The position numbers and the translations under genes are program-made. Positions 6,222 through 24,921 of a stretch of DNA of 35,337 nucleotides are shown piece after piece. Numbering within the stretch: position 1 is the first letter of the stretch; each line of letters begins with the position of its first letter. The notes under the pieces are model-generated. The model had not been told where the DNA came from. It worked only from the letters and a program-made list of their open reading frames with translations, and did no database searches. The DNA comes from Nitrososphaera sp. (GTDB lineage: Archaea; Thermoproteota; Nitrososphaeria; Nitrososphaerales; Nitrososphaeraceae), in contig NZ_JACAEH010000027.1 in assembly GCF_013388945.1 (NCBI RefSeq), forward strand, positions 1 through 35,337. The letters run 5' to 3'.

Positions 6222-6818
6222 TCACTGCATGGTACCCATGCCGCTGCTTCCTTCCATGGCTTTCTGGAATTCTTCCATGAACTCTTGATTCTCAAGCATG
6301 TGGCCTATCATCTGCGTCCTTATCGCAGGATCGTCCATCATGCGCATTAGCATGTCCTGCGTAAAGTCGTGGTTTTCATTCATGTACTGGATCATCTGCG
6401 CTCTAAATTCCTCGGTTCCCATCATGCCCTGCATGAATCCCTGATTTTGCATCATCATGGTCATCATCTGGCCGGAGACCTCGGGGTCTGCCATCATCCC
6501 GGACATCGTGTTCTGCATAAACTGCGAGTTTGTCCTCATGTTCTCGATCATCTGCGCACGGAATTCAGGATCGTCCATCATTTGCTGCATGAACTGCTGG
6601 TTCTGCATCATTGACATCATCATCTGCTGCCTGCCTGTCTGGTCGTTCATCATCTGCTGGTTCCACTGGTTCATCATCTGGGGGTTCTGGATCATCTGGC
6701 TGAACATCTGGTTTGTCGTCATCTGCGCGCTGGTGCTGAGAAAAATGCCGTAGCCTATGCCTATACCTGCGGCAAATACTCCTACTGCAATTCCAATCCA
6801 AACGTACTGGCTTGCCAT
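6222..6818 (-). CDS. Methionine-repeat, membrane-anchored putative copper-binding protein
   Basis: The 198-aa protein starts at ATG 6818 (MASQYVWIG). It has one N-terminal membrane helix (about residues 6-27) followed by an outer domain extremely rich in Met, Gln and Asn. That domain is built of about five degenerate repeats of 24-28 residues, each opening with MM and acidic residues and carrying the spaced core FRAQMI..M..N..FMQ. Methionine-rich extracytoplasmic domains commonly bind Cu(I), and it is divergent from copA, so a copper sponge or chaperone role is a reasonable inference. A TATA-like TCATAAATGATA about 29 nt upstream and a copy of the shared operator beyond it support this start. 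Confidence 0.85.
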   Translation of the reverse strand: MASQYVWIGIAVGVFAAGIGIGYGIFLSTSAQMTTNQMFSQMIQNPQMMNQWNQQMMNDQTGRQQMMMSMMQNQQFMQQMMDDPEFRAQMIENMRTNSQFMQNTMSGMMADPEVSGQMMTMMMQNQGFMQGMMGTEEFRAQMIQYMNENHDFTQDMLMRMMDDPAIRTQMIGHMLENQEFMEEFQKAMEGSSGMGTMQ

Positions 6819-6865
6819 ATAATGGCAGGGTACGCCGGCTATCATTTATGACGTTAGAGTACTTT

Positions 6866-6896
6866 GTAATGCACTGCAGTGGTACAATCCGCTAAA
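6866..6896 (-). promoter_or_regulatory. Shared operator, copy 1 (Met-rich gene promoter)
   Basis: Reading toward the Met-rich gene, element I is TTTAGCGGATTGTACC (6896-6881), the reverse of GGTACA-N5-CTAAA. It is followed directly by element II, GCAGTGCATTAC (6877-6866), then a TATA-like box at about 6841-6853 and the ATG at 6818. The arrangement is nearly the same as at 22827-22857. Confidence 0.75.
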
Positions 6897-6913: not shown

Positions 6914-6950
6914 GGTACAGTTCTCTAAATGCACTGTGCACTGCATTGCA
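6914..6950 (+). promoter_or_regulatory. Shared operator, copy 2 (copA promoter)
   Basis: Element I is GGTACAGTTCTCTAAA (6914-6929), element II is GCACTGCATTGCA (6938-6950), then a TATA-like TCATATACTT (6966-6975) and the copA ATG at 6999. Element order and spacing to TATA match copy 3 at 10151 within about 2 nt. Confidence 0.75.
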
Positions 6951-6998: not shown

Positions 6999-9164
6999 AT
7001 GGCAAAGGACCCCGTATGCGGAATGGTAGTGGACGAGAAGACTGCCCTCTCCTCTGAGATAGGCAGCAGGACCTTTTACTTCTGCAGCACCAACTGCCTT
7101 AACACTTTTGTAAATCCCGAGAAGGAACTGTCCAAGCTCAAAAAGCGGATGTACGTCGCCGCGTCGGGCGCGCTGGTATTGGCTATTCTCAGGGCTGCCG
7201 TATACCTCGGGCTTGCTTTCGGCGCCGTGACGGTCACCTGGGCTCCGATACCGGATATCCCGTTCCTCACGTGGGGCTTGCTGCTGTTCATCATCGTCAC
7301 GCCCATCCAGTTCATAGGAGGATGGACCTTCTACGTCGGCGCATACGAAGCTGTCAAAAGAAAGACGGCAAACATGGACTTGCTTATTTCCATCGGAACA
7401 CTTGCGGCCTACATCTACAGCACAGTCGTGCTATTTGCGCCCGATGCTCTGCCAGTCAAAGAGCGTGATGTTTACTTTGAAGTCTCTGCTGTGATCATCG
7501 CCTTCGTCCTTTTGGGAAAGTACATGGAAGAAGCCATCAAGAAAAGGAGCTCCGCTTCTGTGAGAAAGCTGCTGGACCTGCGGCCAGCAATGGCCCGGGT
7601 GGTTCGTGGCGGCGAGGAAAAAGAGATTCCGGCATCAGAAGTGGCTGTTGACGACATTTTGGTTGTCAAGCCCGGCGAAAAAATTCCTACTGACGGCGTA
7701 ATAATCGACGGTTCTTCTGCAGTGGATGAAAAGATGATCACCGGCGAGTCGATACCCGCGGACAAAAAGCTTGGTGACCAGGTGATTGGTGCCACCGTCA
7801 ACAAGCAAGGACTGCTCAAGGTGAGAGCAACAAAGGTGGGCAAAGAGACGGCACTTGCACAGATAGTTCACATCGTGGAAGAGGCGCAGGCATCGACAGG
7901 CAAGATCCAGAGGCTCGTCGATTCCGTTTCAGCCAAGTTTGTCCCTGCTGTTGTCGGCGTATCGATCGCGTCGTTTGTGATATGGTATTTCGTAATGGGC
8001 AACTTTGTCATGGGTTTGCTCTCCTTTATCGCTGTCCTGATAATTGCCTGCCCCTGCGCGTTGGGAATTGCAACGCCGGCTGCTTTGATGGTTGGAGTCG
8101 GCAAGGGTGCAGAAGCCGGAATACTGATCCGTGGAGCCGAGTACCTTGAGAGGTCTCAAAAGATCACAGCAGTAGTGTTTGACAAGACAGGCACGCTCAC
8201 AAAGGGAGAGCCGTCAGTCACCGACATCGTCACAGTTTCGGGCAACAAAGAAGAGCTGCTCAGTGTAGCAGGTTCTGCGGAAATGGGCTCGGAGCACCCG
8301 CTTGCGCAGGCGATATTGAAGGAGGCCAAGAAACAGGAAATAAAGCTGCAACCGCCGAAGGATTTCGAAGCGGTCTCCGGCATGGGCGTTACTGCACATC
8401 TTGACGGAAAACGTATTCTGTTTGGCAACAGGAAACTGATGCACAAGTTTGGTATCGATGCAGGTCGCATAGAGCAGAGCATGGAAAAGCTCGAGTCTGA
8501 CGGAAAGACGGTGATGATTGTTGCCAGAGAGAATGAGATACTGGGCCTCATAGCTGTAGCAGACACCATCAAGCAGTCGTCGCCGGCTGCCGTCAAGGCA
8601 TTGAGAGAGCTGAAGGTGGAGACCATCATGCTGACAGGCGACAACGAGAAGACGGCCAAGGCGGTTGCAAGAAACGTTGGAATTGACAGCGTCATTGCAA
8701 ATGTTCTGCCGGCCGAGAAAGCTGCTGTAATCAAGCGGCTTCAGTCAGAAGGCAAGGTGGTCGCAATGGTGGGCGACGGGATAAACGACGCGCCTGCCCT
8801 GGCTCAGGCTGACATAGGGATTGCCATAGGCAGCGGTTCGGATATTGCAAAGGAAACCGGCGGAATAATACTGATTAAAGACGATGTTATGGACGTGGCC
8901 CGCTCTATAAGACTTGCAAGGGCAACTATGAAGAAGATAAGGCAGAACCTCTTCTGGGCGCTGATATACAACACGGCAGGGATCCCAGTTGCTGCAATAG
9001 GATTGCTTAGTCCGATAATAGCTGCTGCCGCCATGGCTCTGAGCTCGATTTCAGTAATTGCCAACTCATCGCTACTCAAGAGGTTGAAGATTATTGAAAA
9101 AGAACAGACCCGTCCGACTGCAGGAACTGTACAGAGTTTGAAAGAAATGGGCGTAGAGGCATGA
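6999..9164 (+). CDS. copA: CopA-type Cu(I)-exporting P1B-ATPase with N-terminal YHS/TRASH-like domain
   Basis: The 721-aa P-type ATPase begins with a YHS-type metal module (DPVCGMVVDEKTA to FYFCSTNCLNTF, about residues 4-40) instead of HMA domains. It then has paired N-terminal membrane helices, the actuator MITGES, the transport motif Cys351-Pro-Cys353 in IIACPCALG, phosphorylated Asp395 in DKTGTLT, GSEHPLA in the nucleotide domain, GDGINDAPAL, and a last membrane helix with MALSSISVIANS. CPC plus MxxSS marks Cu(I)/Ag(I) export (P1B-1). The TATA box lies about 30 nt before ATG, implying a leaderless mRNA under the shared operator. It overlaps the next gene by ATGA. Confidence 0.94.
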   Translation: MAKDPVCGMVVDEKTALSSEIGSRTFYFCSTNCLNTFVNPEKELSKLKKRMYVAASGALVLAILRAAVYLGLAFGAVTVTWAPIPDIPFLTWGLLLFIIVTPIQFIGGWTFYVGAYEAVKRKTANMDLLISIGTLAAYIYSTVVLFAPDALPVKERDVYFEVSAVIIAFVLLGKYMEEAIKKRSSASVRKLLDLRPAMARVVRGGEEKEIPASEVAVDDILVVKPGEKIPTDGVIIDGSSAVDEKMITGESIPADKKLGDQVIGATVNKQGLLKVRATKVGKETALAQIVHIVEEAQASTGKIQRLVDSVSAKFVPAVVGVSIASFVIWYFVMGNFVMGLLSFIAVLIIACPCALGIATPAALMVGVGKGAEAGILIRGAEYLERSQKITAVVFDKTGTLTKGEPSVTDIVTVSGNKEELLSVAGSAEMGSEHPLAQAILKEAKKQEIKLQPPKDFEAVSGMGVTAHLDGKRILFGNRKLMHKFGIDAGRIEQSMEKLESDGKTVMIVARENEILGLIAVADTIKQSSPAAVKALRELKVETIMLTGDNEKTAKAVARNVGIDSVIANVLPAEKAAVIKRLQSEGKVVAMVGDGINDAPALAQADIGIAIGSGSDIAKETGGIILIKDDVMDVARSIRLARATMKKIRQNLFWALIYNTAGIPVAAIGLLSPIIAAAAMALSSISVIANSSLLKRLKIIEKEQTRPTAGTVQSLKEMGVEA

Positions 9165-10129
9165 CCGCGTCAGAGAACTTCCGCGCGGTGATGAATGCAC
9201 AGTCTAGCATGAAAAATATTGGCTACTGGAAAGAGCATTATGTTATCGAAACAGATGCAGACGAGATTGAAAGAAACAGCAAATTGACGCATTTTGTCTC
9301 GGATGGCAAGAGTTTTGAATTGTTATATTTTGAGAAAGGCAAAGATGCTCCGAACATTCTAATTTCACAGGGATCGGCTGGTCATTCACGTGTATTTGCT
9401 GAGCTCGGTTACCTGATGCATTTACAGGGGTATAACGTATTCATAATGCCAAAGCACGGCGGTTACACGATCAGCAAGCTCGTTGCAAGACATAAAGATG
9501 CACTTCAGCACATTTTAACTAAATTTAATGACAAGATAGGTGTCTATGCCGAAGGGCTTGGCGGTTATGCGACCTTCTATCTGGCATTGGCTCACGGCCC
9601 AATGAAAAGCATGGTATTGGAGAATGCGCCGGCAATTCTCACAGAGAAAAAGTTCCATATCGCGCTTTTTGAAGGTAAAGAACATGCTGCAGAAAGAAGA
9701 AAGAAACTTCTACCTTTAATCAAGATTCTGGCAAAATTGTTTCCAAGAATGACATTGCCCATATCAGTTTATTTGGATTTCAGCGAGCTGATAGATACGA
9801 AGCAAGAAAATCGTGAAATAGAGCGTCGGTTGGTAGAGAGCTTCCTGAAAGACCCTGATTTTGACAGACGGTATCCGCTATCTGCAATTATGTCTCTAGT
9901 TTCAACTTCTCCACCAAACCCCTTGTCCGTGCTTAAGGTTCCGACCATGTTGTTGGTCGCCAAAAGAGGCCTGTTCGCCTCGTATTTGAAAGACCTGTAC
10001 GGCCAGCTTCCGGATATTGAAAAAAGGCTTGTTGAAGTCGACGGTGGTGTGTTTTGGATGTGCTCGCATAAGAAAGAAGCGGTCAGAGTGATATGCGGTT
10101 GGTTCGATAAAACTCTAAAATTAGCTTAG
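9161..10129 (+). CDS. Alpha/beta-hydrolase-fold protein, probably without hydrolase activity
   Basis: The 322-aa protein has the alpha/beta-hydrolase core: ILISQGSAGHSRVFAELGYLMHLQGYNVFIMPKHG and the elbow region YAEGLGGYATFY. The nucleophile position of the usual GxSxGG elbow is Gly132 instead of Ser, so classical esterase chemistry is unlikely. The C-terminal region keeps a late histidine (CSHKKEA). It starts inside the copA stop codon (ATGA overlap), so the two are translationally coupled and it may act with the pump. Its base composition is visibly more AT-rich than the core genes on either side of the block. Confidence 0.72.
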   Translation: MTASENFRAVMNAQSSMKNIGYWKEHYVIETDADEIERNSKLTHFVSDGKSFELLYFEKGKDAPNILISQGSAGHSRVFAELGYLMHLQGYNVFIMPKHGGYTISKLVARHKDALQHILTKFNDKIGVYAEGLGGYATFYLALAHGPMKSMVLENAPAILTEKKFHIALFEGKEHAAERRKKLLPLIKILAKLFPRMTLPISVYLDFSELIDTKQENREIERRLVESFLKDPDFDRRYPLSAIMSLVSTSPPNPLSVLKVPTMLLVAKRGLFASYLKDLYGQLPDIEKRLVEVDGGVFWMCSHKKEAVRVICGWFDKTLKLA

Positions 10130-10150: not shown

Positions 10151-10187
10151 GGTACAATTCGCTAAACGTGCGCCGCACTGCATTGCA
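10151..10187 (+). promoter_or_regulatory. Shared operator, copy 3 (TRASH operon promoter)
   Basis: Element I is GGTACAATTCGCTAAA (10151-10166), element II is GCACTGCATTGCA (10175-10187), then a TATA-like AGATAAATAT (10201-10210) and ATG at 10232. The same order and near-identical spacing occur before copA. Confidence 0.75.
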
Positions 10188-10231
10188 CAAGAATCTTTGT
10201 AGATAAATATTCTGCGAGGAAAAGAGGAAGC

Positions 10232-10411
10232 ATGGCAGAACAGGCCAGTTCTGGATTATATTGTGAGGTCTGCGGGATAGATGTCAAACAAGACAACGAA
10301 TTGAAGAGGTTTGGCAAGTTCTTCTGTTCGAAGGAGCACATGGAAATGTACGTAAATGCAAAGCAGCGAGAACTGGGAGCAAGGGAACGACGCCGGTTTA
10401 GAGGCTGTTAG
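10232..10411 (+). CDS. Small TRASH-like metal-binding protein (59 aa)
   Basis: This is a short gene of 59 codons ending in TAG at 10409-10411. The product has Cys11-x2-Cys14 (LYCEVCGI) and then Phe-Cys32-x3-His36 (KFFCSKEHMEMY), the spacing of TRASH/YHS treble-clef metal modules found in archaeal copper chaperones and sensors. The rest is a basic tail (RERRRFRGC). It probably binds copper or zinc and could deliver metal or act as a co-regulator. It opens the operon with UspA, the DUF4352-like protein and the second P1B-ATPase; UspA starts 1 nt after its stop. A TATA box about 31 nt upstream and the shared operator precede it. Confidence 0.82.
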   Translation: MAEQASSGLYCEVCGIDVKQDNELKRFGKFFCSKEHMEMYVNAKQRELGARERRRFRGC

Positions 10412-10412
10412 T

Positions 10413-10910
10413 ATGAAGCTGAAGCGAATCCTTGTGCCGCATGACGGGGGGCAGATGTCCGACAAGGCGCTCCTTTATGCGGAAGAACTAGCCAAGGCGC
10501 TCAATTCGGAAGTCACAATTCTGTACGTCATAGAGGAAATCGAGGTGCCTGCCACCCTGTTGCTTGGAAACGACCGCATCATGATAGCAAAGGCCAGAAG
10601 GTCGATAGCCAGGGAGCTTGAGCAGAAATGGAACAATTTTGTTCAGGGAAAGGTAAGGCTTTTGTCATCAGAGAATGTGAAGGCAACTTCTGAAGTGAGA
10701 GTAGGCGACCCCGGCGAGCAGATTCTAAAGTTCGCCAAGGATAACAAGGTCGACCTCATAGTGATGGGGAGCAGGCGGCTTGAAGGCATGTCAAAGGTGG
10801 TTGTAGCGCTAGGAAGCGTTGCAAGGAAGGTCTCTGAAAGGGCGCCGTGTCCTGTCATGATCATACACTCTTCTCATACACACCCAACATGGGGGATGCA
10901 AGAAGATTGA
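10413..10910 (+). CDS. Universal stress protein (UspA family)
   Basis: The 165-aa single-domain Usp protein starts at ATG 10413 (MKLKRILVPHDGG), two bases after the stop of the TRASH-like gene. It has the classic first strand (ILVPHDGG), DLIVMGSRR, and the ATP-binding end GSVARKVSERAPCPVMII, with G-2x-G spacing approximated by VMGSRRLEG and LGSVARKV. Usp proteins are ATP-binding stress modulators. Here it sits between two metal-related genes, which suggests a metal-stress role. The DUF4352-like gene begins inside its 3' end. Confidence 0.9.
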   Translation: MKLKRILVPHDGGQMSDKALLYAEELAKALNSEVTILYVIEEIEVPATLLLGNDRIMIAKARRSIARELEQKWNNFVQGKVRLLSSENVKATSEVRVGDPGEQILKFAKDNKVDLIVMGSRRLEGMSKVVVALGSVARKVSERAPCPVMIIHSSHTHPTWGMQED

Positions 10911-11986
10911 AGGACGCGGTCCTGATCATACCGGCAGTAGTTGCGGCAACAATAGCAATTGTTCTGGTTGTAGCTAATCCGCTAGCAATGCCTAATGATC
11001 AGTCAACCATAAATGAACTAACATCGCCTACTGAGAACCAGCCGCGAGAAGAAGAGCGGCAGCCCACGCCGGAAGAACCGACCACCATTGGCACAAGCGG
11101 GCCGGCGGTTAAAAACCCGCCAGAGGAGGAACTGGAACAGCATGGTACCATGCCGATGGAGCAATTTGCTGAAAGGACGGGAAAGACAGGCGAAGTGCTT
11201 CATGACAACAGGATGATGGTTGCAGTCAATGGTTACAAGGTCACAGATACAATACCGATAACCGGACCAGACGGCTCCAGTATCAATACCGGATCCGAAC
11301 TTGGAAGCAAGTTCCTCACGGTAGACTTGACGGTCAGAAGCATCACGGGTCATACTATACCGCTTTCACCAAACGTGTTCAAGCTAAAGACAGACGTAGG
11401 TGAAATATTGCCGAGTCCCTCCACGCCTCTGGTAGACGCAGGTCTAAAAAAACTGAATCTCCCAGATGGCCAGGCTGCAAGGTTCTTTGTTGTATTCGAG
11501 GCGCCATACTTTGGAAACGATCTTGTCTTAAAGTATTCTGACCTGACCTCGACTTTCGAAGTTACACTCTCGGATAATGAAGCACGTCCTCCCATCTTGT
11601 CAAGCGAATCGCAGCCTGTTTATAATACGAACCAAACCATGCAGGACGGTTCTCTGCAGCTGCTGGTGACAAATGTAACGCCAGTTAACGATAATGCCAG
11701 CGACGGCGATAAAACTCTATTGAAACTTTCCTTGACGTTCAAAAATACCGGTCAGTCTACAATCAGGGTATACCCGTCCTACGTATTCATACAGGACGAA
11801 GAGCTGTATGTTTATGGTCAGCACGATTCGACTGCCGGTATCCTGTCGTCGCCATTAAGTGTGACCGATCTGGAAGCCGGCGAAAGTGTAAGCGGCGACA
11901 TCATAATCATGATGCCTGCTAATTCTTCGAATTTGATCTTCATGTACACAGGCCCTAACAACTCCTATATCGCAAGGATACCTTAA
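10889..11986 (+). CDS. Membrane-anchored protein with DUF4352-like domains
   Basis: The 365-aa protein has an N-terminal hydrophobic helix (AVLIIPAVVAATIAIVLVV) followed by a Pro/Glu-rich linker (EERQPTPEEPTT). The rest is beta-rich extracytoplasmic sequence in two similar parts, each with a strand pattern like FLTVDLTVRSITGHTIPLSPNVFKL and LLKLSLTFKNTGQSTIRVYPSYVFI. That resembles the DUF4352 immunoglobulin-like fold. The start ATG 10889 overlaps the end of uspA by 22 nt; a TTG at 10907 that overlaps the uspA stop is also possible. The function is unknown. It lies 24 nt before the second P1B-ATPase gene. Confidence 0.75.
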   Translation: MGDARRLKDAVLIIPAVVAATIAIVLVVANPLAMPNDQSTINELTSPTENQPREEERQPTPEEPTTIGTSGPAVKNPPEEELEQHGTMPMEQFAERTGKTGEVLHDNRMMVAVNGYKVTDTIPITGPDGSSINTGSELGSKFLTVDLTVRSITGHTIPLSPNVFKLKTDVGEILPSPSTPLVDAGLKKLNLPDGQAARFFVVFEAPYFGNDLVLKYSDLTSTFEVTLSDNEARPPILSSESQPVYNTNQTMQDGSLQLLVTNVTPVNDNASDGDKTLLKLSLTFKNTGQSTIRVYPSYVFIQDEELYVYGQHDSTAGILSSPLSVTDLEAGESVSGDIIIMMPANSSNLIFMYTGPNNSYIARIP

Positions 11987-12010: not shown

Positions 12011-14497
12011 ATGAAGACTGTTGTCGTAAGCATCGAGGGTATGATGTCCGTGTGCGACGGGCTGGGAGTTGAAAAACGACTTTCGACTCATCCCGGAATA
12101 CGATGTGTTGAAGCTAATTTCCTTAGTGGCACCGCCACAGTCGAGTACGATAAAACCAAGATGAGTTTGGCTGATGTCAAAAAGCTTGTCGCAGAATGCG
12201 GCTATCACTGTGCGGGTGAACATGTTCCCGAACACATCGTCAAGCCGTCGGACCCCCCTCACGATCATTCTGGTGCGCACGATGTCAAGCCCAAGGCCGT
12301 GCAACCTCAATTAGTAAAGGAAGCGCCCCCTGCACCCGGTCCATCAGAGGCAAGAGAACATGTCAGACACGAAATGGCAGGAATGGGAGGTCAGGCTGCA
12401 ATGGCACACGAAATGGGTCACGGAGAGGGAATGTCTATGGAAGCGATGGTCAAAGATATGCAAAGGCGTTTTATTGTAGCCCTTGTCTTTGCAATCCCTG
12501 TCTTCATCTATTCCCCATTGTTCACACAAGTCTTTCAGATTCAGGCTCCTCTGCCGTTTGGAGTCTCCAACGAACTGTTATCCTTCTTTCTGGCATCTCC
12601 TGCAGTGCTCTATGGAGGTTGGGTCTTTTACGTTGGTGCTTGGCGCGCCTTGAAGAATCGCGTTCTCAACATGGCCGTTCTCGTATCGCTATCGGTTTTG
12701 GGAGGATACCTGTTCAGTGTTGGCGCGACGTTCTTCTTTGAATCGGAGGTCTTTTATGAAGCTGCTTCGCTGCTTCTGGTTTTCGTGTTGTTTGGACACC
12801 TTATGGAGATGCGGGCCCGTGCGGGCACCTCTCAGGCTATCCGCACATTGATGAACTTGGCTCCTCCGAAAGCTACTGTGATCCGGGATGGACAGCAGAT
12901 TGAGTTGCCCACCTCAGAAGTTCTCGTTGGCGATATCGTCCTCATCCGGCCAGGGGACAAGATTCCAGTTGATGGTGTTGTAATCGAAGGCTCGTCGGAT
13001 GTGGACGAATCAATGATCACCGGCGAAAGCGTGCCTGTCAAGAAGTCAGTTGAGGATGAGGTGATCGGCGCCACGATAAACAAGACGGGTTCATTCAAGT
13101 TCCGTGCAACCAAGGTGGGAAGAGACACCGCCCTTGCACAGATAGTGAAACTCGTTCAGGAAGCTCAGAACTCCAAGGCTCCATCCCAGAGGCTTGCCGA
13201 CCGCGCATCCCAGTGGCTTGTTATTGCAGCTATTGTGGCATCGCTTGCTACCTTTTTTGTATGGTATGGAATAGCGCTTGAACCACTAGTATTTGCAACT
13301 ACCCTTGCAATTACGGTCATCGTGATCGCATGCCCGGATGCACTAGGATTGGCCACGCCCACGGCAGTTATGGTAGGCACAGGATTAGGTGCCCTAAACG
13401 GCATTTTGTACAAGAATGCTGTTGCACTCGAAGAGGCTGGGAAAATCAACGCTGTTATCCTTGACAAGACAGGAACGCTCACCCTCGGTCAGCCCAAGGT
13501 CGTGGAAATTGTGACTGCAAAGGACGGGCTCTCCGAATCAGAGATTCTCCGCTTTGTTGCCTCGGTAGAGCAAGGAAGTGAGCATCCACTAGCGCAGGCG
13601 ATCCTCGAAAAAGCACGTGAAAAAGGGGCGAGTCTCAGCAAGGTAACAAACTTTGATGCCATCCCCGGCCACGGTATTAGTGCAGTAGTCGACGGTCGGA
13701 GAATATTGATAGGGAATCGAAAGCTCATGCGCGACCGTCAGATTGCCATTACAGAAGTCGACAGTCAAGCCGCAGTCCTTCAGGGAGCAGGCAGGACGGT
13801 GATCATGGCCGGCATAGATGGTCGGCTCGAAGGCGCCTTTGCGGTTGCCGACGCCGTACGCCCAACCAGCAGAGAAGCTGTAAAAAGACTAACATCGATG
13901 GGCATCCAGGTCGCTATGCTGACAGGCGACAACCGAGCCACGGCTGAACGCATCGCCACAGAGCTTGGGATCAAGACGGTCTTTGCAGACGTCCTGCCCG
14001 GAGACAAGGCTGCAAAGGTTCAGGAGCTCCAGACACAGGGAAAGAAGGTAGCAATGGTTGGAGATGGCATTAACGACGGTCCTGCACTAGCTCAAGCAGA
14101 TGTCGGGATCGCAATAGGCGCGGGAACCGACGTAGCCATGGAGACTGCAGATGTGGTTCTCACCAGAAGTGATCCGCTTGATGTTGCAAAAGTGGTTCTT
14201 TTGAGCCGGGCTACACGAAGGAAGATGCAGCAGAACCTCTGGTGGGCCGCCGGTTACAACATGATAGCTTTTCCAATAGCTGCAGGAATTTTGTATCCGG
14301 CGATAGGCCTGATCTTAAGACCAGAAATCGCTGCAATCGCAATGTCAGGTTCATCTCTTGTGGTGGCGCTCAATGCCTTGTCACTCAAGCGCGTGAAGGT
14401 GAAAGAGCTTGTCCCCATGTCGGCCGAAGTGTTGCCTGAAGAAACAGCGCCACCACAAGATTCCAAACCAGGGCGGCATGTACACGTAGGCGCGTAG
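12011..14497 (+). CDS. P1B-type heavy-metal ATPase with CPD motif and His/Met-rich N-terminus
   Basis: The 828-aa protein begins with an HMA-like domain whose CxxC is lost (GMMSVCDG, so Ser13 and Asp16 replace the two cysteines). A His/Met-rich linker follows ([33 protein letters not shown]), and then a full P-type core: [28 protein letters not shown]. The transport motif is Cys441-Pro-Asp443 (IACPDALG), neither CPC nor CPH. The last helix has [17 protein letters not shown], and the protein ends in a short His tail (RHVHVGA). Overall it looks CopB-like, a Cu or other soft-metal exporter. It is the last gene of the TRASH operon and converges with ppsA. Confidence 0.9.
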
Positions 14498-16757: not shown

Positions 16758-16790
16758 CCTATAAAATAATTCTTGGTACAAGTCTCTAAG
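16758..16790 (-). promoter_or_regulatory. Shared operator, copy 4, beside the ppsA TATA box
   Basis: GGTACAAGTCTCTAAG (16775-16790, plus strand) is a copy of element I. Read toward ppsA it abuts the TATA box TTTTATAGG (16766-16758). The arrangement CTTGTACCAA then TATA(A/G)GG closely matches copy 6 at 22898-22929. Element II is not seen. It could alternatively serve the divergent gene at 16890, whose own TATA-like TTTATACA lies near 16851. Confidence 0.6.
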
Positions 16791-22826: not shown

Positions 22827-22857
22827 GTAATGCACTGCAGTGGTACAATTTGCTAAA
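22827..22857 (-). promoter_or_regulatory. Shared operator, copy 5 (36-aa peptide promoter)
   Basis: Read toward the 36-aa gene, element I is TTTAGCAAATTGTACC (22857-22842) and element II is GCAGTGCATTAC (22838-22827), then TATA (about 22811-22800) and ATG 22780. Thirty-one aligned positions differ from copy 1 at only two. Confidence 0.75.
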
Positions 22858-22897: not shown

Positions 22898-22929
22898 TTT
22901 AAGCGGCTTGTACCAAATTGTCTATAAGG
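22898..22929 (+). promoter_or_regulatory. Shared operator, copy 6, beside the TATA box of the secreted-protein gene
   Basis: TTTAAGCGGCTTGTACC (22898-22914) is element I with one extra base between its halves. It is followed by TATA-like TCTATAAGG (22921-22929) and a GTG start at 22964. The layout matches the ppsA promoter more than copA. An adjacent palindrome AAGCGCTT lies at 22892-22899. Confidence 0.55.
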
Positions 22930-22963: not shown

Positions 22964-23986
22964 GTGACAGACAAGAGGGTTTTCATCATTCTGGCAATCT
23001 CCGTGTCGTTCCTCTTTGTATCGCTGCCCCTCGACTATGCGTACGGAGCAGGAGGCCACGACCTTCCTCCTTCAGACATAGGCGACAGGCAGGCATTCCT
23101 GCGCTTTAATGCACCTTCCATTGCCAGCGGTTCTGAGGTATCCATGTCATATTCGCTGATAGATGAGTCTACAGGCAGCAACATACAGCATGTGACTTAT
23201 TTTCTAACAGTCGTCGACCCTGAAGGCCAGAACGCATTTTCTGAGGTACTACACGGACATGACGGAACTGTAAACGTTGAGTTCAGGTCAGGATCAGAGG
23301 GGCAGGAGAATTACAAAATCAATGCAAACTATGACAACCTTGCTGCAAGCCACGTCGCCGATCAGGCCGGCCTCATAACAGTGGTTGGCCCGGTCTTTGA
23401 TAACCTTGGCACCTACAAGGTCGATATCGAAGTGAGCGGCATCGACTTTGACAATACCTTTCTGCCGGAGCCCTTGAAATACGACTATACCCTGGCGATA
23501 GCCGAGGCGCAGGTCTTTGACGTTTCATATCAGGAAGCTACATTCAATGTCAATATTGTTTCGCCGTCAGCAGTTGAGGAAGTAACGTTGGAGCCCGAGA
23601 GGAAACAGCTTATCATCCAGTATCCTTCAGGAGAATGGCAGCACTTTGACGACTTTCGCGTGTATGTCGACATACCGAATGAAATGATGTATGGTCCGTT
23701 TACCGCTGTGTTCAACGGGATGGAGCTTGAGGTAAGCGAAGAAAGAAAAGACGACAAAACTACCACCCTTGTTCTGAATGGAACGCATCTTGATGTACTG
23801 ATGAACGATAGTGCGGACGGAATGGAGGGGATGGACGTGAACGGTCCTGCCCAGCAACAAAATGCCATAGTGATAACTGCCACGTCGGCGGTTCCAGAGT
23901 TTCCATTAGCGCTTCCTCTTGCGGCCGCAGGACTTGGGTTGGCGATTGTTATTGCGAGAGAAGCCAAGAGAAGGCTGCTGTTTTAG
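22964..23986 (+). CDS. Secreted surface protein with PEF-type C-terminal sorting tail
   Basis: The 340-aa protein begins with a signal peptide (VFIILAISVSFLFVSLPLDYAYGAGG), continues as a beta-rich extracytoplasmic domain, and ends with VPEFPLALPLAAAGLGLAIVIA and a basic tail AREAKRR. That pattern (PEF motif, hydrophobic helix, positive cluster) is the archaeosortase-type anchor seen in Thaumarchaeota. A short Met-containing stretch (MNDSADGMEGMDVNG) precedes the tail. The start is GTG 22964; no ATG lies close. Its ligand or partner is unknown; promoter copy 6 places it in the proposed metal regulon. Its stop codon lies inside operator copy 7. Confidence 0.78.
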   Translation: MTDKRVFIILAISVSFLFVSLPLDYAYGAGGHDLPPSDIGDRQAFLRFNAPSIASGSEVSMSYSLIDESTGSNIQHVTYFLTVVDPEGQNAFSEVLHGHDGTVNVEFRSGSEGQENYKINANYDNLAASHVADQAGLITVVGPVFDNLGTYKVDIEVSGIDFDNTFLPEPLKYDYTLAIAEAQVFDVSYQEATFNVNIVSPSAVEEVTLEPERKQLIIQYPSGEWQHFDDFRVYVDIPNEMMYGPFTAVFNGMELEVSEERKDDKTTTLVLNGTHLDVLMNDSADGMEGMDVNGPAQQQNAIVITATSAVPEFPLALPLAAAGLGLAIVIAREAKRRLLF

Positions 23987-23997
23987 CGAGTTGTACC
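23982..23997 (+). promoter_or_regulatory. Shared operator, copy 7 (winged-helix regulator promoter)
   Basis: TTTAGCGAGTTGTACC overlaps the stop codon of the secreted-protein gene. Downstream come a TATA-like ATCATATTTG (about 24033-24042) and the ATG of the regulator at 24080. If the regulator binds this motif, this site would give autoregulation. Confidence 0.6.
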
Positions 23998-24079: not shown

Positions 24080-24619
24080 ATGTCTTCCAATCCCGATGAA
24101 AGCACGAAGGACCGCGTGTATGGATTCATAGCGAAACATCCCGGCTCTTACTTCAGGGAAGTTCTGCGATCGCTCAGAATAGGCACGGGCAACCTTCAGT
24201 ATGTGATTGAGGCGCTAGAGCGTGAAGGGAGAATTACAGCAATCAGGGTCGGCTCCTACAAACACTTCTATCCGTCCGACGTGGATGAAGACAAGAAAAA
24301 GATTCTTGGCATTCTATCTCAGGAATCGCCGCGGGAAATACTGCTATTTCTTGCAAGAAGGCCGGGTGCCTGCCAGACGGACGTTGCCAGAGAAATAAAG
24401 TGCTCCTCGCCCACCGCTCGCTGGTATCTGGTCAGACTCGAGTCGCTTGGACTGATATGGAGCAGAAAACAAGGAGTAGAGGTGAGATATTATGCGAATA
24501 CTTCTGTCCCAGAGCTGGCCAGCCTTCTAAAGGCCTACAGACCGAATGTCTGGAGCAGGTATGCTGACAGGATGGCGGACTTGATGAGGACTTTTGACGA
24601 AAGCGGAAGTGATGATTGA
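24080..24619 (+). CDS. Tandem winged-helix transcriptional regulator
   Basis: The 179-aa protein has two winged-helix units in a row. The first (about residues 8-67) is DRVYGFIAKHPGSYFREVLRSLRIGTGNLQYVIEALEREGRITAI; the second (about 78-150) is REILLFLARRPGACQTDVAREIKCSSPTARWYLVRLESLGLI. This is the MarR/ArsR-like double-HTH layout common in archaea. There is one cysteine in the second recognition region and no obvious metal cluster, so direct metal sensing is not shown. It overlaps the following membrane-protein gene by one base and carries operator copy 7 upstream. It is the best candidate in the window for the regulator of the shared operators. Confidence 0.85.
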   Translation: MSSNPDESTKDRVYGFIAKHPGSYFREVLRSLRIGTGNLQYVIEALEREGRITAIRVGSYKHFYPSDVDEDKKKILGILSQESPREILLFLARRPGACQTDVAREIKCSSPTARWYLVRLESLGLIWSRKQGVEVRYYANTSVPELASLLKAYRPNVWSRYADRMADLMRTFDESGSDD

Positions 24620-24921
24620 TGGCAGGCTTGCTTGACTTCCTGCAGCTGAGCCACCATGGCTTCTGGTGGGAACTCTTCAGCCTTGCCAGTGCCGGTTTGG
24701 CCATAGCGCTGCTCGTCGTTGCTATCGTTGCCTACCGGAGGCACAGGCTGAGAAGGCTCCTCCCTCTTTCTATTGCTTTCAGTCTCTTTGCCGTGAAGGT
24801 CGGACTTCTGCATCTTGACAGTATCTATCCCATGCTGCAGGCGGAACTCGCAATTTCCTCTGTGGCAGCCGAGTTTGGCATGCTCTCAATGATATTTCTT
24901 GCAATGGTTAAAAAGTGGTGA
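24619..24921 (+). CDS. Small three-helix membrane protein paired with the regulator
   Basis: The 100-aa protein has three hydrophobic segments (FWWELFSLASAGLAIALLVVAIVAY, LLPLSIAFSLFAVKVGLL, AVAAEFGMLSMIFLAMV-like at the end) and a basic cytoplasmic loop RRHRLRRL. It starts at ATG 24619, sharing its A with the TGA stop of the regulator (TGATG); a TTG one codon earlier is also in frame. Regulator plus small membrane protein pairs are common in archaea (the haloarchaeal DUF7521 proteins are similar in layout), suggesting membrane signalling or sequestration of the regulator. The function is not established. It converges with the ADH gene. Confidence 0.72.
   Translation: MAGLLDFLQLSHHGFWWELFSLASAGLAIALLVVAIVAYRRHRLRRLLPLSIAFSLFAVKVGLLHLDSIYPMLQAELAISSVAAEFGMLSMIFLAMVKKW

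Follow-up and report, generated by a model that had tools for sequence, protein, structure and literature searches.

A 59-residue CopM-like protein gene heading a predicted operon with a bacterial-type CPD ATPase in a Nitrososphaera genome

The window, that is, the whole stretch of 35,337 nucleotides analysed here, is contig C11 of a Nitrososphaera genome (2.0 Mb, 31 contigs). At 10232..10411 (+) it carries an open reading frame of 59 codons for a putative CopM-like, TRASH/YHS-type treble-clef protein, as judged from the ORF, family profiles and a predicted structure. Three genes follow on the same strand, encoding a 165-aa universal stress protein (Usp; PF00582, E 9.2e-33; 10413..10910), a 365-aa protein with a hydrophobic N terminus and a DUF4352 domain (PF11611, E 3.4e-18; 10889..11986) and an 828-aa P1B ATPase with a degenerate HMA domain, a His/Met-rich linker, CPD in TM6 and MSGSS in TM8, a bacterial P1B-3 variant (12011..14497). 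The 59-aa and Usp genes are 1 nt apart, the Usp and DUF4352 genes overlap by 22 nt, and 24 nt separate the latter from the ATPase gene, so that the four genes between 10232 and 14497 are packed as a predicted operon; this spacing, the Usp and DUF4352 domains above their Pfam cut-offs and the CPD motif confirm the gene content claimed in the original prediction. Upstream, copA (6999..9164, +) encodes a P1B ATPase with an N-terminal YHS domain (E 3.4e-7) and a CPC motif. An alpha/beta-hydrolase-like gene (9161..10129, +; below the Pfam cut-off) overlaps its end, and a gene for a Met-rich membrane-anchored protein (6222..6845, -) diverges from it; relatives of the Met-rich protein are found near several homologues of the 59-aa gene. 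A multicopper-oxidase-like protein is also encoded on this contig (31858-32913; PF07732, E 6.6e-8).

The translation of the small frame (MAEQ...YCEVCGIDV...RFGKFFCSKEHMEMY...RRRFRGC) contained the predicted ligand-type residues, C11-x2-C14 and F31-C32-x3-H36, and the predicted basic C-terminal tail, which ends in Cys; its Cys/His content amounts to 4 Cys and 1 His. The homologue in a close named relative of the same genus, Nitrososphaera sp. bin14 (L008), shares 67-71% identity. In a core of 36 codons, 16 are unchanged, 13 show synonymous and 7 nonsynonymous changes, and the base differences fall 3, 5 and 17 at codon positions 1, 2 and 3. This codon-position pattern indicates selection on the frame, by which the predicted ORF is a real, conserved gene. 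The bin14 homologue (L008 6001-6186) has a frameshifted tail, with the expected -RFRFGGC in another frame, and the homologue in G044 (L009 5010-5282) has an internal TAG; decay or assembly error is possible in both.

The family is patchy across Nitrososphaeria and missing from most relatives. A search for loci related to the 59-aa gene returned one locus. A four-sequence profile gave matches in 6/70 genomes of the family, one of the six being a weak zinc-ribbon match, and in 45/398 genomes across the phylum, where many were the ends of ~700-aa frames, taken as YHS ends of ATPases, and another group consisted of small ORFs beside copA. In 11 aligned small homologues C-x2-C-G, K-R-F-G-K, F-C-S and the His are kept, and C11, C14, C32 and H36 are each conserved in 10 of the 11; the exceptions are L053, without three core Cys, and L052, with Cys for His. 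In most members the C terminus reads -GGCC or -GCC; that of the window protein is -RGC. A limited search of the literature on ammonia oxidisers found no account of this family or of the promoter elements described below.

Curated models placed the protein only loosely. A Pfam scan of the single 59-aa sequence gave no TRASH or YHS match, the gathering cut-offs of both lying above the window protein, and single-sequence Pfam and PHROGs scans were discarded as yielding chance-level matches only. Extended to the 11 members, Pfam gave weak matches throughout, to DUF2116 (a treble clef) in 9/11 and to YHS in 3/11, with Arc_trans_TRASH not among the families matched; YacG also matched weakly among family members. 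Profile comparison was more informative: in hhalign the family profile scored 96.7% (E 3.5e-10) against six CopM-type sequences, 96.6% (E 5.2e-10) against ten CopM and YHS sequences, 94.8% (E 5.4e-8) against seven CopA YHS ends and 33% against nine CopT TRASH domains. A two-sequence zinc-ribbon control reached 85.7% (E 5.5e-6), and the negative controls against CopM (five column shuffles and one reversed control) all stayed at or below 2.3%. Reciprocally, when models were run over all window frames of at least 30 aa, the 59-aa ORF was recovered at 0.0016 with the CopM model and at 0.00089 with the CopT-TRASH model, and at E <= 1 the CopM model gave a single further match, to the YHS end of CopA, and the CopT-TRASH model none. 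The predicted TRASH/YHS likeness thus holds for family profiles and reciprocal models and fails for the single sequence; of the two outcomes on which the original prediction had been staked, the frame proved conserved and the profile search found family-level similarity to CopM/YHS.

An AlphaFold2 model built from two sequences shows a knuckle, a hairpin and a helix (pLDDT 76.5). Its PDB structure matches were weak and mostly treble clefs (metallothionein, LIM, L24e, the ZMYM5 TRASH domain), with a Pseudomonas metallothionein at Foldseek rank 2; as E was never under 0.15 and Z never above 5.3, these searches support a treble clef and nothing beyond. The protein has the TRASH-type ligand pattern C-x2-C ... 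(F)C-x3-[CH] in such a fold, together with the size (a small single domain, about 56-71 aa) and the profile relation of CopM. On these sequence comparisons we call it CopM-like, outside any curated TRASH family.

As the original prediction had proposed, gene neighbourhoods were compared, here at 15 places, the window included, with flanks from about 1 to 25 kb. The 15 include degenerate copies (L009 with an internal stop, L050 and L051 with stops, L053 with Cys lost, L054 partial) and leave out weak or partial profile matches (G109, G225, G312, G176 and others, E about 1e-4 to 1e-2), the ~700-aa ATPase matches and the copT-copM-copA places. A P1B-type ATPase gene lies within 4.2 kb of the homologue at 11/15 places, or 12/15 with the continuation of G105; chance linkage is roughly estimated at a few percent from 1-14 loose P-type ATPase candidates per 1-5 Mb genome. 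At 4/15 places (window, L008, L014, L050) the homologue has a Usp gene no more than 150 nt away. At E <= 1e-10 the DUF4352 protein was matched in none of the remaining 150 of 151 sampled genomes of the order. The gene combination had been called unrecognised, and this stands for the full set of four, the DUF4352 match being confined to the window's own genome; it does not stand for the parts, as the pair of 59-aa and Usp genes recurs and the CPD ATPase belongs to a bacterial subtype described in the available part of PMC5552934.

Two other uses of such a fold deserve consideration. The protein might be a metal store of the SmtA/PP0621 kind, a treble clef induced with stress proteins and holding Zn, Cd or Cu for no specific partner. 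Metallothionein SmtA (1jjd) is its best PDB-sequence match (E 0.031) and, besides the Foldseek hit, Metallothio_Pro appears in 2/11 members and PP0621 in 9/11, the latter being the best NCBIfam match of the 59-aa protein (E 3.5e-5) at 24 bits against a cut-off of 45 (NF041023); promoter element 2, described below, is moreover common to the 59-aa gene and Usp genes. The NF041023 search of the genome itself was discarded as uninformative, with below-cut-off matches in 13/14 control genomes too. Prokaryotic metallothionein clusters use about 9 or more Cys/His ligands. The four Cys and one His of the 59-aa protein fall short of that number and are too few for a metal cluster, the CopM profile match is far stronger, and P1B ATPase genes are linked at 12/15 places, all of which makes a simple store unlikely. 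Treble clefs often act as adaptors, and the basic tail, the Usp adjacency and the weak YacG matches would suit a zinc-structured adaptor or small regulator whose tail binds Usp or DNA, with no metal traffic. The -GGCC or -GCC end of most homologues counts against this and indicates metal or thiol chemistry, leaving an adaptor quite improbable.

The ATPase of the operon has a damaged HMA motif, with SVCD where CxxC is expected, and its translation has CPDALG in TM6 and MSGSS in TM8, both features of P1B-3 subtype VIc. Among 29 other ATPase frames of the order, 28 have CPC and one has CPD (G528, 51% identity). Plasmid-borne bacterial relatives reach 53-60% identity among the best 40 matches, and four bacterial regions examined all contained a CPD ATPase, with multicopper oxidase genes adjoining in two. 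According to the accessible text of PMC5552934, subtype VIc of P1B-3 is made up of rhizobial ATPases that carry CPD and MSGSS, those of Xanthobacter autotrophicus and Nitrobacter hamburgensis among them; both species occur among the bacterial matches to the window ATPase. Judged by identity to bacterial proteins, the CPD ATPase was probably gained from bacteria by horizontal transfer. The locus combines a bacterial-type pump with archaeal promoter signals.

The original prediction had seen one promoter architecture before both copA and the 59-aa gene, and this was confirmed and extended to two elements, element 1 (GGTACARTYCKCTAAA) and element 2 (GCACTGCATTGCA), upstream of both genes. Element 2 lies at 10175..10187 (+), 57 nt before the ATG of the 59-aa gene, and before copA at 6938..6950 (+); a TATA-like box, AGATAAATAT, was read from the sequence at 10201..10210 (+), and its distance to the ATG suggests that the mRNA may be leaderless. 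A sigma-70 and terminator scan was set aside as unsuited to archaea. Exact GCASTGCATTGCA sites number 48 in 8 genomes against none for the reversed pattern. An ATG-started frame begins 55-60 nt after 16 of 46 unique sites, compared with 3.4% of 5000 random positions for this 55-60 nt range. At exactly 57 nt there are 11 ATG frames, and in the window as in bin14 the 59-aa gene starts at this distance. Several Usp genes and Met-rich proteins follow the element, and some sites have no obvious gene. As a more general observation, GCASTGCATTGCA appears to be a Nitrososphaeraceae promoter element placed about 57 nt before Usp, Met-rich and copA-type starts, with examples at 6938 and 10175 of the window and at L139, L140, L150, L118, L125 and others.

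Element 1 is more restricted. It occurs before the 59-aa gene (GGTACAATTCGCTAAA, 10151..10166, +), in two copies before copA (6881-6896 and 6914-6929, +), in two copies (22842-22857, +; 22899-22914, -) before the gene for a 340-aa exported-type protein (22964..23986, +), and at 23982..23997 (-) before a gene for a protein with two winged-helix domains (HTH_HVO_0163_N and HTH_24; 24080..24619, +), which is paired with a gene for a 101-aa membrane-type protein (24616..24921, +). The 340-aa protein is weakly similar (E 1.2e-6) to a 611-aa protein of the genome's own CopC/D-like cluster. With up to two mismatches, TGGTACAATTCGCTAAA has 8 sites in the genome of 2.0 Mb, and all but one of these are in the 35-kb contig; the reversed pattern has 10 sites in the genome. 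Because 3 of the 7 contig sites served to define the pattern, the naive probability of 4e-12 for this clustering is too small; of the other 5 genome sites, 4 are still in the contig. The site at 16775 has no copper gene nearby, and a match on G000:C31, inside a coding frame, was taken as chance. With one mismatch the element is present in 3/18 genomes of the genus; outside the window it stands before copA in bin14 (G012), whereas in G007 it precedes the winged-helix/membrane pair (L074), as it does in the window, and at one further site an unrelated 197-aa gene. In bin14 the winged-helix gene diverges from the 59-aa gene, which there has element 2 only. The winged-helix gene is linked to the module or to element 1 in three Nitrososphaera genomes, and because of this linkage and the placement of element 1, the protein encoded at 24080 is the leading candidate for a regulator of the element 1 genes.

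The available portion of PMC7785015 reports a motif, TTCSGSMTTTGWACYANT, that marks the N. viennensis genes induced when copper is limiting; CopA2 of this species is likewise induced. Judged by eye, element 1 at the 10151 site (ACTGGTACAATTCGCTAA) matches the reverse-complemented motif at 15/18 positions. The published pattern, at 2 mismatches, has no site in the window, which makes element 1 related to the N. viennensis motif and not identical with it, and identity of the two was dropped; at the same tolerance it matched in 7/7 genomes tested, in several not above the reversed control. Paralogous winged-helix genes occur in the CopC/D-like clusters of G014 (probably N. viennensis) and of the window's own genome (G000:C26), beside TGGTACAA sites. 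The original prediction of a metal-export operon was not kept; the related published motif marks copper-limitation genes (PMC7785015, in the part available). The motif agreement, the CopA2 induction and the paralogous winged-helix genes raise the possibility of a copper-limitation response, in which the chaperone and the P1B ATPases would supply copper to enzymes outside the membrane and not serve detoxification. Against it, the two motifs differ and the CPD ATPase has two annotated bacterial relatives in copper-resistance-like clusters; we consider it somewhat doubtful. It overlaps with the reading that we prefer, with the same activity under opposite regulation.

Taken together, the 59-aa protein may be a CopM-like protein that chaperones or buffers metal within a regulon linked to copper and to stress, switched on with copA; we give this reading a probability of about 0.6. 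It would be a small cytoplasmic treble-clef metal binder acting like archaeal CopM, holding a single soft metal ion, of which Cu(I) is the likeliest, by C11, C14, C32 and H36, possibly helped by the terminal Cys, and could hand the metal to P1B ATPases (CopA and/or the CPD ATPase of the operon) or buffer it. Its operon would be induced together with copA via the two common promoter elements, element 1 probably being the operator at which the linked regulator with two winged-helix domains (24080) acts, and element 2 a genus-wide promoter element that could also drive Usp genes. Several points count against this CopM-like reading: no curated cut-off is reached, DUF2116 is commoner than YHS among the members, the zinc-ribbon control scored 85.7%, Usp lies directly downstream, unlike copMA, a CopZ-like chaperone is present, and the family is rare. 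According to the consulted part of PMC7830388, CopM with its TRASH domain replaces HMA-type CopZ in many archaea. The present genome has an HMA-type CopZ-like gene beside another P1B ATPase on contig C19, which rules out replacement of CopZ by the 59-aa protein; the protein would add to CopZ.

More broadly, and only tentatively, some soil ammonia-oxidising archaea may possess an undescribed copper regulon in which the winged-helix regulator (24080), acting at TGGTACAATTCGCTAAA, controls copA, the CopM-like chaperone and the exported protein; in the present species the chaperone operon may have captured a bacterial CPD P1B ATPase, with an archaeal chaperone serving the foreign pump under Usp-type stress and copper control. 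Ammonia-oxidising archaea depend on copper enzymes. By offering a specific operator, a candidate regulator and a CopM-like family with an unusual Cys tail, the locus is a testable candidate for copper control in soil ammonia-oxidising archaea.

Among known systems, the comparison with Sulfolobus CopM made in the original prediction was apt. In the excerpts available from PMC3595675, CopM1 (71 aa) and CopM2 (56 aa) of Sulfolobus metallicus are TRASH proteins co-transcribed with copA, which is induced by Cu and Cd. The order copT-copM-copA was seen in L057, L059, L060, L061 and L063, probably Sulfolobales-type clusters. Archaeal CopM (copTMA, SSO10823-type, 56-71 aa) and the 59-aa protein have in common their size, a single treble clef, C-x2-C, FC-x3-C/H and a P1B ATPase gene nearby, and the -CC end usual in the 59-aa family is also found on some CopM-type proteins (L056, L060). 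They differ in the fourth ligand, Cys in CopM and His in the 59-aa protein, in the next gene downstream, copA for CopM and Usp here, and in position, copM lying directly 5' of copA whereas the window copA is a unit of its own 1.07 kb upstream of the 59-aa gene. The adjacent copT (HTH and TRASH) of CopM clusters has no counterpart in the window, which has only a TRASH-less Lrp-type gene, and the 59-aa promoter carries elements other than those of CopM clusters. Elsewhere, regulators of CopT-like type (Lrp+TRASH) and a TRASH protein standing alone were observed at L009 178-399 and 4273-4803 and at L069 664-1095; L069 belongs to the window's own genome, and its CopT-like gene is unlinked to the operon.

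The YHS domain (PF04945) of P1B CopA has Asp as first ligand and is part of the pump, whereas the 59-aa protein has Cys, stands alone and lies below the Pfam cut-off; a YHS domain makes an adenylyl cyclase Cu(II)-responsive, as stated in the accessible text of PMC4626032. SmtA/PP0621 proteins resemble the 59-aa protein in the treble clef, C-x2-C and R-x-G-x-[YF]-[YF]-C-S-E, but it has fewer cysteines and all matches are below cut-off. The N. viennensis motif and CopC/D cluster, in the part of PMC7785015 available, resemble the window in the TGGTACAA core, a winged-helix gene and copper genes downstream; the second half of the motif differs from element 1, and so do the genes, which in the window are those for CopA, the CopM-like protein and the 340-aa protein. 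Finally, the Cu-ATPases of P1B-3 subtype VIc (PMC5552934, in the text available) have TM6 CPD, TM8 MSGSS and YN(x)4P in common with the window ATPase, but whereas subtype VIc is bacterial, the latter has an archaeal host and is placed in an operon with genes for a CopM-like protein, Usp and a DUF4352 protein.
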